Assembly (NCBI RefSeq): GCF_001424405.1
Contig: NZ_LMPS01000005.1
Location: 778,268 to 842,267, forward strand
Direction: 5' to 3'
Source: Dyadobacter sp. Leaf189
Lineage (GTDB): Bacteria > Bacteroidota > Bacteroidia > Cytophagales > Spirosomataceae
Length of the DNA stretch: 64,000 nucleotides
The notes below the pieces were generated by a model. That model saw nothing but the letters and a program-made list of their open reading frames with translations. It was not told where the DNA came from and did not search any database. Below are positions 29,949 through 37,476 of this stretch, one piece after another. Every line of letters begins with the position of its first letter. Positions within the stretch are counted from its first letter, which is position 1. The position numbers and the translations under genes were made by a program.

Positions 29949-30968
29949 ATGGCGCATACTCCTGAAAGCATTCTTAAAGACATTCGAAATAAAAGATACC
30001 TGCCGATCTATTTTCTGCACGGCGATGAACCTTATTATATTGATTCCATTGCTGAGGAGCTGGAAAAGCGGATTGTTCCAGAGTCAGAGAAAGGGTTTAA
30101 TCAGTTTGTGCTTTACGGAAAGGATACGGATGTTGCCGGGGTGCTGAGCTATGCGCGCCGCTTTCCATTTATGTCGGAGCGGCAATTGGTTTTGGTTAAA
30201 GACGCAAACAAGCTGGGCGGGATCGAACAGAAAGATCAGCTGGCGCGACTGGAAGATTACGCGCAAAATCCGCTTTCAAGTACCGTGCTGGTATTTTGCT
30301 TTCATGCAAATGCCGATGAGCGCCGCGCCTACATCAAGGCAATCCATGCGAAAGGCGCGGTGGTGCAATCAAAAAAGATGTACGATAACAAGCTGCCCGA
30401 CTGGGTTTCGTCATTTTGTCAGCAGGAGGGTGTCAAGATCAGCCCGAAGGCGGTGTTGATGCTGGTGGATAATATAGGTAACGATCTGAAGCGCCTGACT
30501 AATGAGATCAGAAAGGTGATGGTTAACCTGAAAGTAGGTGAGGGGATAGACGCGGGTGCGGTGGAGCGTTTTGTGGGTATCAGTAAAGAATATAATGTAT
30601 TCGAGTTTCAGAAAGCGCTGATGTCGCGTGATGTGATGAAGGCCAACCAGATCGCGCACCACTTTTCGGCAAATACAAAGGATAACCCTCTGGCGCCCAT
30701 TCTGATCATTTTATATAATTTTTACTCCAAGCTGCTGCTGGCGCACAAGTCGCCCGATAAGAGTGAAAAAGGCCTGGCGGCGGAGTTGGGGGTCAATCCG
30801 TATTTTGTTAAAGATTACCTGCTTGCCTGCCGGAATTACCCGCTGCCTAAGGTGGCCAGTATCATCCATTATCTCCGTGAATGCGACGGCAGGATGAAGG
30901 GACTTGACGGGGTTACGGTATCGGAAGGCGAGTTGCTGAGGGAGCTGGTTTTCAAAATCCTGCATTAA
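29949..30968 (+). CDS. holA: DNA polymerase III subunit delta
   Basis: 339 residues, matching HolA length. The N-terminal AAA+-like domain opens YLPIYFLHGDEPYYIDSIAEEL and has the conserved FPFMSERQLVLVKDA stretch; the domain keeps no functional Walker A, as expected for delta. The C-terminal collar region contains NPYFVKDYLLACRNYPLPKVASIIHYLRECDGRMKG. Role: the clamp-loader wrench that opens the beta clamp at the replication fork. It precedes the alkA gene by 54 bp. Confidence 0.93.
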   Translation: MAHTPESILKDIRNKRYLPIYFLHGDEPYYIDSIAEELEKRIVPESEKGFNQFVLYGKDTDVAGVLSYARRFPFMSERQLVLVKDANKLGGIEQKDQLARLEDYAQNPLSSTVLVFCFHANADERRAYIKAIHAKGAVVQSKKMYDNKLPDWVSSFCQQEGVKISPKAVLMLVDNIGNDLKRLTNEIRKVMVNLKVGEGIDAGAVERFVGISKEYNVFEFQKALMSRDVMKANQIAHHFSANTKDNPLAPILIILYNFYSKLLLAHKSPDKSEKGLAAELGVNPYFVKDYLLACRNYPLPKVASIIHYLRECDGRMKGLDGVTVSEGELLRELVFKILH

Positions 30969-31022
30969 GATAAATAGCAAGAAACAGCTTTCAACGATAT
31001 TCCAATTGACATATCTTCGATC

Positions 31023-31928
31023 ATGGAAGAAGGAAACAGCATACTTATACCCACACCTGCGCTTTTCAGTTTTGAGGAATGTATGTGGTTTTTAAACCGC
31101 AACTACGACGACTGCCTGCATGAAATTCGCGATAACAGCATTTACAAGGCTTTGGAAATTAACGGACAGCTTGTGCTCGTCAGGATAGTTGAAAATGGGA
31201 ACTTCCTTGAAGTTGAGCTGCTGAAAGGTGAAATGGATCAGGAGGGCGAAGCATTTTTAATCGGGTATATCCGCGAATGGTTTGATATGGATACCCAAAT
31301 CCAGCCTTTTTATGATCTGTTGAAAAAAGATACGCGGCTGTCTTACATGGCAGAAGCATTCAAAGGTTTGCGACTGGTGAGCATTGCCAACTTATATGAG
31401 ACAATTTGCTGGTCGATTATCGGCCAACAGATCAATCTATCTTTTGCATATAAGGTAAAGCGCGCGCTTGTGGAGCGGTTTGGCAAGCGGATATCGTACG
31501 AAGGTCGCAGCTATTTTGTGTTCCCGGATCCCGAAGTTCTGGCGGCGGTGAGTATGGAGGAGTTGAAGGCCATGCAATTCTCTACCCAGAAAGCGGATTA
31601 TACGATCGGTATCTCAAAAGCATTTGCCTCCGGGGCGCTGAGCCGCGAAATGCTGGAAGCTTTGCCCGATTTTAGTTCGAAAATGAAGGCGCTTACTGCT
31701 CATAAAGGTATAGGTGTGTGGACCGCCAATTATGCATTGATGAAGTCACTGCGCGAACCGGAAAGTATTCCACATGGCGATATCGGACTGCTGAATGCAT
31801 TGGCCAATCATGACATTATCCGTGACAGGAAGGAAACAGATCGTATAGCTGCGCTTTTCTCGCTGTACAAAGGTTGGGAGAGCTACCTCGTTTTTTATCT
31901 ATGGCGGAGTCTGACCTTTAAACAATAA
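31023..31928 (+). CDS. alkA: DNA-3-methyladenine glycosylase II (AlkA-like)
   Basis: 301 residues. The N-terminal part is a beta-rich domain; the central HhH-GPD domain contains SIIGQQINLSFAYKVKRALVERFG (about residues 133-156, GQQI motif), a helix-hairpin-helix around LTAHKGIGVWTANYALM, and the catalytic-aspartate region IPHGDIGLLNALA. Role: excision of alkylated bases, notably 3-methyladenine. It ends 2 bp from the convergent Ada-domain/2OG-oxygenase operon, forming an alkylation-repair cluster. Upstream holA may be cotranscribed. Confidence 0.92.
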   Translation: MEEGNSILIPTPALFSFEECMWFLNRNYDDCLHEIRDNSIYKALEINGQLVLVRIVENGNFLEVELLKGEMDQEGEAFLIGYIREWFDMDTQIQPFYDLLKKDTRLSYMAEAFKGLRLVSIANLYETICWSIIGQQINLSFAYKVKRALVERFGKRISYEGRSYFVFPDPEVLAAVSMEELKAMQFSTQKADYTIGISKAFASGALSREMLEALPDFSSKMKALTAHKGIGVWTANYALMKSLREPESIPHGDIGLLNALANHDIIRDRKETDRIAALFSLYKGWESYLVFYLWRSLTFKQ

Positions 31929-31930
31929 GA

Positions 31931-32188
31931 TCAAACCCTTTTCCATTGCAGGTACGCTTGGCGCATGCAATGTGCGCAGGGCCGGTAGCCGTTTTCACGT
32001 GCTTCTGCTTCGGAGCTGAAAAATATCCTGTTTTGCTGTTTCATTCTTCTGCCGGAGCGGCAGTTCAACAAACCATAAATACGCAGCTTACTATTTCCAG
32101 CGAATCTGATTTCACCGCTTTGTATAAGCCCGAAAAGAAACCGGCTTGTGCGAAAAGAAAGTGGACGGAGTTCTGAGTGCAACAGCAT
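31931..32188 (-). CDS. Stand-alone Ada metal-binding-domain protein
   Basis: 85 residues. IRFAGNSKLRIYGLLNCRSGRRMKQQNRIFFSSEAEA followed by GYRPCAHC matches the Ada N-terminal zinc domain (the equivalent stretch in E. coli Ada ends GFRPCKRC). Cysteines C43, C71 and C74 are visible. The position of Ada Cys38, the methyl acceptor, is occupied by G39, so phosphotriester repair is unlikely; it probably binds metal and DNA or acts as a regulator or scaffold. It begins 2 bp after the stop of the 2OG-oxygenase gene, so they form one transcript. Confidence 0.8.
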   Translation of the reverse strand: MLLHSELRPLSFRTSRFLFGLIQSGEIRFAGNSKLRIYGLLNCRSGRRMKQQNRIFFSSEAEARENGYRPCAHCMRQAYLQWKRV

Positions 32189-32190
32189 AG

Positions 32191-32892
32191 CTAGCTCAAT
32201 GCATCATGAAAAATAATCCCGAGCGTGTAGCGGCTGCCCGTATGTACCTGGCTTACGCCGTGCTTCATATTTGCACGAAAGTAGCCCCTTGTTCCTTTTA
32301 TCGGCCGGAAGTTGGTCGTGAAAACGAGTATATCTCCCAAATTGGGTTGCACTACGATTGCTTTTGATTGCGCTCTCGGGATTTGCTGCGTAAGTACAAA
32401 TTCTCCGCCGGTATAGTCCTGTCCTGCCTGATTCAGAAACAGGACCATTTGAATTGGGAAGAATACATCACCGTATAAATCCTGGTGCAATGTGTTGTGG
32501 CCGCCTTCGCCATATTTGAGGATCAATGCGGTAGGTTTTATTTGTCCGTGAGCGCTGCATTGTTCCAGGAACTCCGCAAAATCATTTGGGTAATGCTGCG
32601 AAATTCCAAGCTGCTGCATCCAGTTGTTCGCCACTGGAACAAGGTTTGGATAGTAGTTTTCCCGCAGTGCGCCAATCAATGCGGGCAGGGGATAGTTGAA
32701 GTATTTGTATTCACCTAAACCGAACCGGTAACGTTCCATCACGACCGTTTTGCGGTATAGGTCCGCGTTTCCGTACTGGCTGATCAGCTGGCTACATTCA
32801 TCAGCATCAATGGCTTGCCTCACCAGCGCGGAACCGTTATTGTTGAGACTGTTCGCTAAAGTTTGCCATTCCGTGTTCTGTATTGCTCTCAT
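32191..32892 (-). CDS. 2-oxoglutarate/Fe(II)-dependent oxygenase
   Basis: 233 residues from the ATG at 32892 (a TTG at 32925 would put the start inside a large inverted repeat and is not preferred). The C-terminal double-stranded beta-helix shows the facial triad H136, D138 (TLHQDLYGD) and H211 (MKHGVSQV) with R221 (SRYTLGIIFHD) for 2-oxoglutarate. The fold is of the prolyl-hydroxylase type rather than typical AlkB. The operon with an Ada domain and alkA next door suggests oxidative dealkylation or a stress modification. Substrate unproven. Confidence 0.82.
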   Translation of the reverse strand: MRAIQNTEWQTLANSLNNNGSALVRQAIDADECSQLISQYGNADLYRKTVVMERYRFGLGEYKYFNYPLPALIGALRENYYPNLVPVANNWMQQLGISQHYPNDFAEFLEQCSAHGQIKPTALILKYGEGGHNTLHQDLYGDVFFPIQMVLFLNQAGQDYTGGEFVLTQQIPRAQSKAIVVQPNLGDILVFTTNFRPIKGTRGYFRANMKHGVSQVHTGSRYTLGIIFHDALS

Positions 32893-32893
32893 T

Positions 32894-32936
32894 GCAGGAT
32901 AATTTGTCAGAATCAAGTTTGACAAATGTATCCTGC
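32894..32936 (-). promoter_or_regulatory. Inverted repeat overlapping the 2OG-oxygenase/Ada promoter
   Basis: Left arm GCAGGATAATTTGTCA (32894-32909) and right arm TGACAAAT-G-TATCCTGC (32920-32936) pair over 16 bp with a single extra G and a 10-nt loop. The right arm contains a -7-like CAAATGTA (32923-32930, minus-strand TACATTTG). The repeat ends 2 nt from ATG 32892, so it could be an operator or an mRNA hairpin that hides the start. Confidence 0.65.
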
Positions 32937-32980
32937 GAAAGGAGTAGGGAAAACCCGAAACTTGCGGGATTTAACCTTAC

Positions 32981-34759
32981 CTACACTGAAACCACCTGCT
33001 CGTCTTTCCGCTCGCCGATCTGCTGGCGCCACATGGCATAGTACAGCCCTTTTTCGTCCAGCAGCGAGTTGTGCGTACCCACTTCGATAATCCGGCCTTT
33101 TTCAAGTACGTAAATGCGATCTGCATGCATGACAGTTGACAACCGGTGGGCGATCATCACAGTAATATGCTGCCGCTGATCGGTAATGGTCCGGATTGTG
33201 TTGGATATCTCCTCTTCCGTAAGCGAGTCGAGTGCCGAGGTTGCTTCGTCAAAAATGATGAGGTTGGGGTTACGGAGCAATGCGCGTGCAATGGACAGTC
33301 GCTGCCGCTCGCCACCTGAAAGCTTCAATCCACCTTCGCCAATGACGGTGTAAATGCCGTTCTCAGCCCGTGAAAGCAGATTGTAGCATGCAGCTTTGAG
33401 CAACACATCATTAATCATTTCATCCGTCGCATCGGGGTTGACGAAGAGCAGGTTTTCTTTGATAGTACCTGAGAAAAGCTGCGTATCCTGCGTTACAAAG
33501 CCGATTTTGTTCCTTATTTCATCAAAATCAATAGTATTTCCATTGAAGTTGTTGTAATAAACATTCCCTTCAATGGGGGGGTATAGTCCAACCAGCAACT
33601 TAACCAAGGTGGTTTTGCCCGAGCCAGACGGACCAACAAATGCGATCGTTTCGCCTCTTTCCACGCGGAATGAGATGTTTTCCAATGCGGGCCGCGTAGC
33701 TGACTGGTGCTGGAATTTGACTTGTTGGAATTCAAGAACTTCAATTTCCCCTATCTTTTCCGGCAGCAAAGGTTTCTTTTCAATGGGCCGGGCCAGAAGC
33801 GTTTGCAGGTTGTTCAGCGAAGCTTCGGCCTCGCGATACGAAAGGATTACGTTACCTAACTCTTGCAATGGGCCAAAAATGAAGAAGGAGTAAAACTGCA
33901 TCATCATCATCTGTCCCACGGTAATCTGGTCGCGGAAGACAAAGAACAGCAGCGCGAACATGATGCATTGCTGCAGAAAGTTAACGAACGTTCCTTGTAT
34001 AAAGCTGATTGAACGAATGCTTTTTACCTTTTTCAGTTCCAGTTTCAGGATCTTGAAAGTAGTAGTATTCAGCCTGCTGATCTCCTGTTGCGTCAGTCCG
34101 AGGCTTTTTACAAGTTCTATATTTCTTAATGACTCGGTTGTGGAACCGGCAAGGGCGGTTGTTTCGGAGACAATGTTCTTTTGTATTGCTTTGATCCTGC
34201 GGCTGAGGATGCTTGTCAGAATTGCGAGTACCACGGAGCCTACCAGGTAGATCAGCGGCAGCATCGGACTGAGCTTAAATGCGACAATCACAACGAACAC
34301 GATACCGATCAGCGTCGTAAAGAGTACATTGACAAAGTTCATGATGAACTTCTCACAATCTGCCCGCACTTTTTGCAGGACTGACAATGTTTCCCCGCTT
34401 CGCTGGTCTTCAAAATCCTGGAAAGGCAGCCGCAATGCATGGCGAAGTCCGTCCGTATACAGGTTAGCGCCAAATTTCTGGATCACCACATTCACCAGGT
34501 AATCCTGGAAAGCTTTGGCAATGCGGGAGACCATGGCAGTACCGATAATCAGCAGCAGACCGGTGAGTACGCCTTTGAAAAATTCATCTTTGAGCCCGTT
34601 GTTACGGAAGTGCGCTGCCTTGTTCGCATAAGGGTCGATAAGCAGGTTACCTAATATGTAAGGGTTAAGAAGCGAAAAAACCTGGTTAATTGCTGCCATC
34701 AGGAGAGCCAGCAATATCAGCCATTTGTAGCGGCTGAGATATTGTAATAATAATTTCAT
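32981..34759 (-). CDS. ABC transporter, fused permease and ATPase (MsbA-like exporter)
   Basis: 592 residues from ATG 34759; the longer 34864 frame adds a non-conserved N-terminus. Six transmembrane helices span about residues 1-320 (first LILLALLMAAINQVFSLL), followed by the ATPase with Walker A GPSGSGKTTL, signature LSGGERQRLSIARAL, Walker B LIIFDEATSALD and the H-loop MIAHRLSTV. A half transporter that dimerises in the inner membrane. The substrate (lipid, peptide or drug) cannot be determined; an MsbA-type lipid export role is possible. tRNA-Met lies 131 bp upstream on the same strand. Confidence 0.88.
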   Translation of the reverse strand: MKLLLQYLSRYKWLILLALLMAAINQVFSLLNPYILGNLLIDPYANKAAHFRNNGLKDEFFKGVLTGLLLIIGTAMVSRIAKAFQDYLVNVVIQKFGANLYTDGLRHALRLPFQDFEDQRSGETLSVLQKVRADCEKFIMNFVNVLFTTLIGIVFVVIVAFKLSPMLPLIYLVGSVVLAILTSILSRRIKAIQKNIVSETTALAGSTTESLRNIELVKSLGLTQQEISRLNTTTFKILKLELKKVKSIRSISFIQGTFVNFLQQCIMFALLFFVFRDQITVGQMMMMQFYSFFIFGPLQELGNVILSYREAEASLNNLQTLLARPIEKKPLLPEKIGEIEVLEFQQVKFQHQSATRPALENISFRVERGETIAFVGPSGSGKTTLVKLLVGLYPPIEGNVYYNNFNGNTIDFDEIRNKIGFVTQDTQLFSGTIKENLLFVNPDATDEMINDVLLKAACYNLLSRAENGIYTVIGEGGLKLSGGERQRLSIARALLRNPNLIIFDEATSALDSLTEEEISNTIRTITDQRQHITVMIAHRLSTVMHADRIYVLEKGRIIEVGTHNSLLDEKGLYYAMWRQQIGERKDEQVVSV

Positions 34760-34890
34760 ACAGTAGCAGGGTGAAATAGGTGATTTACCTAGACTGATAA
34801 ACTGAAAGCGGGAAAATTTAATTCTCTGCGAAGCCTTAAAATGCAGAAACAATAAAAAAGACATCCTGGAATGGGATGTCTGAAATCGGG

Positions 34891-37430: not shown

Positions 37431-37433
37431 TTT

Positions 37434-37476
37434 AAAATCAGGGAACTTCAATCACATGTAAGTTCCCTGATTTTTT
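37434..37476 (+). terminator. rpsO terminator
   Basis: A 15-bp perfect stem (AAAATCAGGGAACTT, 37434-37448, with AAGTTCCCTGATTTT, 37460-37474) followed by T residues. It lies 4 nt past the rpsO stop. Confidence 0.9.

Follow-up and report, generated by a model that had tools for sequence, protein, structure and literature searches.

Start-site hairpins that block the translation of read-through messages are already known for phage T4 gene e and I-TevI and proposed for Bacillus subtilis sigG, and, judged from its sequence, an alkylation-repair operon of Dyadobacter sp. Leaf189 would join them. The operon codes for a 2-oxoglutarate (2OG)-Fe(II) oxygenase and a stand-alone Ada metal-binding domain protein; it lies in a 64,000-nucleotide (nt) stretch of DNA, here called the window (assembly GCF_001424405.1, contig NZ_LMPS01000005.1, positions 778,268 to 842,267), and a large inverted repeat precedes its first gene. 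In the available text on the two T4 genes, upstream transcripts form a start-site hairpin and are poorly translated, and transcripts from the proximal promoter lack it (PMC3014915, PMC2988022). The proposed likeness lies in a hairpin that locks read-through messages and that own-promoter transcripts cannot form. However, the T4 examples are phage late genes with early/late timing, whereas the Dyadobacter locus is a bacterial repair operon with a probably damage-responsive promoter, in a phylum without Shine-Dalgarno sequences, and its arms diverge in sequence between species. The sigG gene is a chromosomal case: as described in the accessible portions of the report, a hairpin of 20 or more bp is proposed to block read-through translation from the upstream operon and is likewise impossible in transcripts from the gene's own promoter, although sigG is a sporulation sigma factor gene of another phylum, with an extra small hairpin in its own mRNA (PMC5942855). 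Among the matches listed in our literature search, whose coverage left most subscription journals outside, none reported a read-through start-site hairpin in Bacteroidetes or in an alkylation operon.

For the control of the promoter, the closest described system is the Caulobacter Cada2 regulon. According to the available portions of the report, it too combines a 2OG oxygenase gene and an Ada-domain gene in one operon; it has a box of GCAA, an AT-rich spacer and CGG, which the Dyadobacter box resembles, and an autoregulated helix-turn-helix (HTH)–methyltransferase regulator without an Ada zinc domain, as in the candidate proposed below; unlike here, the second gene of the operon also has a methyltransferase domain and GCAA and CGG are 3 bp apart rather than 4 nt, and those portions make no mention of a start-codon hairpin (PMC10957082). 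In Escherichia coli, GCAAGATTGTTGGTTT before ada resembles GCAAGATTCRGGTTT. The E. coli system is described, in the same partial text, as using an A-box and full-length Ada (PMC10957082), whereas the only Ada zinc domain of this genome (PF02805 at E <= 0.001) is that of the operon's 85-amino-acid (aa) protein.

We consider it likely that the Dyadobacter repeat is a read-through lock and that a methylation-responsive, Cada2-like activator turns on the operon's own promoter. Transcripts reading through from the co-directional ATP-binding cassette (ABC) transporter gene upstream would carry both arms, fold over the leader and the AUG, and be translated poorly. Transcripts from the operon's own promoter would begin in the loop and lack the 5' arm, which would serve them only as promoter DNA, leaving the start codon exposed. 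The activator would bind a GCAAG...CGG box beside the -33 element and turn the promoter on, so that synthesis of the oxygenase and the Ada-domain protein would largely await alkylation damage. In this way the hairpin probably holds the repair genes off as long as damage has not activated their own promoter.

The hairpin and the promoter that it overlaps

The preliminary description had noted a 16-bp inverted repeat with one bulged G and a 10-nt loop over a -7 box, and we confirm it before the oxygenase gene, at 32936-32894 of the minus strand. The elements of the locus, all on the minus strand, are as follows.

32951..32965, minus strand: conserved upstream box GCAAGTTTCGGGTTT, overlapping the -33 region and resembling the Cada2 site (B-box GCAA ... 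X-box CGG)
32950..32953, minus strand: putative -33 element TTTT, 19 nt upstream of the -7 box, assigned from the sequence and the Bacteroidetes consensus
32936-32920, minus strand: 5' arm, GCAGGATA-C-ATTTGTCA, containing the -7 box; the bulge is the C at 32928 (G on the plus strand)
32923..32930, minus strand: -7 box TACATTTG, within the 5' arm, fitting the consensus TAnnTTTG at -12 to -5
32919-32910, minus strand: loop, 10 nt, with the predicted own transcription start at about 32918
32909-32894, minus strand: 3' arm, TGACAAATTATCCTGC, making up most of the predicted own 5' leader
32191..32892, minus strand: 2OG-Fe(II) oxygenase gene, 233 aa (PF09859 Oxygenase-NA, E = 4.2e-79), its ATG start supported by homologues
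31931..32188, minus strand: second operon gene, stand-alone Ada metal-binding domain protein, 85 aa (PF02805, E = 7.1e-9)
32981..34864, minus strand: ABC transporter gene (PF00005, PF00664), upstream and co-directional, the proposed source of read-through

Read along the minus strand, the box GCAAGTTTCGGGTTT is followed by a 20-nt spacer, the -7 box TACATTTG, 30 nt and the ATG (32892-32890), from which the 3' arm is separated by a single A. The leader can pair with the last part of the spacer, the -7 box itself and the nucleotides directly after it. In the available text of the promoter studies, the Bacteroidetes consensus is TTTG/TAnnTTTG for -33/-7 (PMC6847099), the Flavobacterium -7 box covers -12 to -5, and a Flavobacterium johnsoniae promoter is counted as probable when its -7 box lies 4-5 nt from the start (PMC9723704, PMC6847099). 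Because of this 4-5-nt distance in Flavobacterium, the operon's own start is predicted to fall in the loop, at about 32918, and if so only transcripts from upstream can form the hairpin. An in-frame TTG at 32925 was rejected as the start codon since homologues align from the ATG, and a terminator role for the repeat was rejected since 32850-33060 holds no terminator-like site; none was thus found between the ABC-transporter and oxygenase genes.

This hairpin is the longest inverted repeat in the window with a 3-20-nt loop when one bulge or mismatch is allowed; in a search without bulges it appears as two perfect 8-bp pairs, divided by the bulge. None of 60 dinucleotide shuffles of the window gave a repeat of 16 pairs; the best result was 15 pairs (2/60). 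As RNA, an 81-nt stretch folds at -22.4 kcal/mol (z -4.1), with 0/200 shuffles as stable, and shorter stretches around the hairpin give z -5.4 and z -6.6. In a promoter scan that retained 51 open reading frames (ORFs) of the window, seven had a TAnnTTTG box no more than 75 nt from the start, and among these the oxygenase gene alone has a structured leader (next z -0.57). Elsewhere in the window, a perfect 15-bp inverted repeat at 37433-37474 stands directly behind a 91-aa ORF and is probably a terminator; the product of the ORF looks like ribosomal protein S15.

Conservation of the layout and coevolution of the arms

The oxygenase is present in 40 of 48 Dyadobacter genomes, with D. crusticola among the near relatives (82% identical), and 38 of the 40 loci share the layout of box, 20 nt, -7 box and 22-48 nt to the start. 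The box consensus GCAAGWWWCRGGTTT fits 35 of these 38, and the remaining three (L007, L020 and L024) are each one base off. The -7 search favored a 20-nt spacing by design, and the constancy of that spacing rests on every listed Dyadobacter box being a good -7 match; those one base off the consensus are TTATTTTG in L009 and L034 and TAATTTTA in L026. In all 38 loci the upstream gene is a co-directional ABC transporter gene, ending 76-525 nt before the start. Two oxygenase loci, L028 and L029, stand directly behind a methyltransferase gene without the box and promoter layout, and are not among the pairing-test loci. The oxygenase of L030 (G019) looks broken, with two partial matches, one with an internal stop, and the match in L017 (G004) has one internal stop. 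Upstream of the box, seven loci (L004, L005, L008, L014, L016, L033 and L039) have intergenic near-repeats of TTCACTCATTCAATCATT or its complement.

The hairpin has z below -2 in 25 of the 38 loci. Strong hairpins (z below -3) occur on most of the deep Dyadobacter branches of the oxygenase tree, and the hairpin is therefore probably ancestral to the genus.

The 5' side of each locus, made up of the spacer and the -7 box, was paired in silico both with the 3' side of that locus and with those of all the others. The initial list held 42 regions: 34 from Dyadobacter, seven from other genera, and L069, which has a box but no -7 box and was excluded. The search expression did not pick up L007, L020, L024 and the broken L030; they are absent from the 41-region test and were added by hand for the later analyses. 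Self-pairing averages -13.9 kcal/mol in the 41 regions against -9.3 (standard deviation [sd] 0.48) after permutation, and -16.0 against -10.2 (sd 0.54) in the 38 Dyadobacter regions, with values as low in 0/20,000 permutations in both tests, so that the covariation of the arms among relatives, proposed earlier as a check, is borne out. Removal of eight loci with strong upstream terminators leaves 30 Dyadobacter regions with -17.7 against -11.2 (0/20,000); the eight on their own give -9.4 against -7.6 (586/20,000). As a control, 23 Dyadobacter alkA regions with a box had no self-pairing excess (-8.0 against -8.9); six further alkA regions without a box were left out.

Sequence identity follows a different pattern. 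Among 11 lineage representatives, which were picked among strong-hairpin loci (the unselected tests being the two permutations above), the box is 87% identical and the -7 box 85%, the 20-nt spacer 28% and the 8 nt following the -7 box 38%, and self-pairing is -23.5 against -12.2. The self-pairing excess together with the low identity of the spacer means that pairing is maintained while the arm sequence diverges.

These data bear on the first of two roles entertained in the preliminary description, in which a dimeric repressor binds the palindrome as its operator and blocks the promoter. A long, near-perfect dyad over the -7 box would suit such a protein, as would the finding that the stems are not enriched in G·U relative to A·C mismatches. 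However, the lineages have neither the spacer portion of the arm nor a half-site in common, and the part that is shared, the -7 box, is itself the promoter. Across 26 loci, between 10.5 and 25 nt separate the dyad center from the start of the -7 box; the exact core palindrome, sought as a possible regulon site, has no second copy in the 6.07-Mb genome; and regulation could already be accounted for by positive control acting at the conserved box upstream. We therefore disfavor the repressor model, and a single-protein operator is unlikely. Of the two, the other proposed role, in which transcripts begun upstream fold into an RNA hairpin that hides the start codon, has the better support, and the arms do covary.

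Predicted occlusion of the start codon, and the gene upstream

In the 38 loci, the region from -12 to +3 pairs with the 5' side with a mean probability of 0.65, compared to 0.45 after permutation (0/20,000), and the start codon surroundings with 0.53 compared to 0.41 (2/20,000); in L019 and L036 the stem extends through the ATG. In a modelled transcript that begins just after the -7 box, pairing of the start region drops to an average of 0.23. The 106 homologous loci without a detected box, mostly from other genera, have a start pairing of 0.37 versus 0.65. Measured from the -7 box and from the ATG, the edges of the stem vary alike (sd 3.2 and 3.7 nt; 26 loci). In F. johnsoniae, of a phylum without Shine-Dalgarno sequences, mRNA structure is named in the available text among the features tuning initiation (PMC6847099).

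That the hairpin covers the start codon region would also be expected of a regulatory element in the operon's own mRNA, such as a thermosensor, an attenuator or a protein-bound leader, with transcription starting upstream of the 5' arm. We regard this as quite improbable: the -7 box lies inside the 5' arm, 20 nt from the box in Dyadobacter, which puts the predicted start in the loop; Rfam gave no family match across 30900-33100 of the window; and the spacer and the 8 nt after the -7 box have the low identities given above.

The genes upstream offer a further comparison. In other genera, the upstream gene is divergent at four loci with a box, and none of the four forms a stable hairpin (-0.4 to -6.5 kcal/mol). 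The eight Dyadobacter loci with strong upstream terminators have weaker hairpins (-11.8 versus -19.1; p = 0.004), a direction that fits the read-through model. Across 45 loci, terminator and hairpin strength are correlated with a Spearman coefficient of -0.30 (p = 0.047), which is weak evidence because the strong-terminator loci cluster on the tree.

Several findings weigh against a read-through lock. The hairpins of 13 of the 38 Dyadobacter loci are weak, falling short of z -2, and three loci of another genus (L175, L178 and L183) have a co-directional upstream gene, yet fold at -8 to -10 kcal/mol with z near 0. The clustering of the eight strong-terminator loci means that their trade-off may be one event. 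G·U pairs are not favored over A·C in the stems (45:37 in self-pairing versus 34.8:28.7 in cross-pairing), nor when embedded (22:16 versus 18.5:15.0), and selection on RNA and on DNA is not separated by these counts. A separate point counts against the activator: this genome carries two more exact copies of the box (L214 and L215), and neither showed a gene start or a -7 box downstream.

The missing G·U asymmetry, and the persistence of pairing through sequence change, would also agree with a structure in the DNA, a cruciform or single-strand hairpin that modulates promoter opening. We think this very improbable, as bulges and internal loops at several loci should disfavor extrusion, and a DNA structure leaves unexplained both why the 3' arm reaches the start codon and why the hairpin is absent at the loci with a divergent upstream gene.

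A candidate activator and its proposed box

The read-through lock would be paired with a promoter that responds to damage, and the box points to a candidate for its activator. A related box stands before alkA, which is convergent with the operon.

30977..30991, plus strand: related box GCAAGAAACAGCTTT, 20 nt before the -7 box TATCTTCG, with no hairpin
31023..31928, plus strand: AlkA-like HhH-GPD glycosylase gene (PF00730, PF07934), near-leaderless

The preliminary description was correct that no such repeat precedes alkA, yet alkA has this box at the same spacing. Only 3 nt (ATC) separate its -7 box from the ATG, and many of the 23 box-bearing alkA regions of Dyadobacter have the near-leaderless layout too. 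The alkA gene, ending at 31928, and the Ada-domain gene, ending at 31931 on the opposite strand, are convergent with their stop codons 2 nt apart, and transcripts of either unit may therefore run antisense into the other.

It had also been noted that no regulator was obvious. A candidate is found elsewhere in the genome, on contig C6 (G000:C6): a Cada2-like AraC-HTH–methyltransferase that lacks the Ada zinc domain, with a near copy of the box (GCAAGTTTCAGGTTG, 20 nt, GAGATTTG) upstream of its own gene. Its start was chosen by likeness to a relative's protein, P0001, which has HTH_18, a methyltransferase domain and RLHD. The G000:C6 protein has SQFHFQR, and RVYD at the position of RLHD in Cada2; its match to ogt is above the cut-off, and its match to the E. 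coli Ada model, over positions 80-350, falls below the cut-off of that model. Because the box resembles the published Cada2 site and precedes both alkA and the regulator's own gene, this protein is probably the regulator. Compared to the Cada2 site, GCAAGTTTCGG is present in the box, with the wider GCAA-to-CGG distance given above, and many relatives have CAG for CGG.

Elsewhere in the genus the box precedes genes for a stand-alone Ada zinc-domain protein, an AraC-HTH–methyltransferase, flavin reductases and a short-chain dehydrogenase/reductase-like protein (named by eye); at 10 of 21 sites, in the 20 genus stretches examined, no gene start was found behind it, and L214 and L215 are among these 10. 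In several Dyadobacter genomes the box lies before flavin-reductase-like genes (L219, L225 and L226; Pfam on a piece of one), which are a possible further member of the regulon. Ada appears to be split in two, with the zinc domain alone in one protein and an AraC-HTH–methyltransferase as the other (L213:1652-3555, L233 and window 31931-32188), and genes for both sit behind such a box in Dyadobacter genomes.

We also weighed a bolder idea, that the hairpin is itself the alkylation sensor. Methylation of A or C in read-through RNA would block pairing and open the lock, and pre-made messages would yield oxygenase before new transcription; in a milder form, promoter and leader would be one element, selected for structure and free in sequence, of a class that may be common in Bacteroidota. 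We hold this extremely improbable, and return to a lock on read-through messages with a Cada2-like activator at the promoter.

The findings point to a Cada2-type adaptive response in Dyadobacter, with the Ada domains apparently divided over two proteins. The loci of 38 species form a natural series in which the promoter spacer and the leader diverge and the pairing is kept. If the proposed lock is real, bacteria without Shine-Dalgarno sequences would also silence read-through messages by hairpins that overlap the promoter, and in Dyadobacter such silencing would keep a DNA-repair operon damage-inducible.
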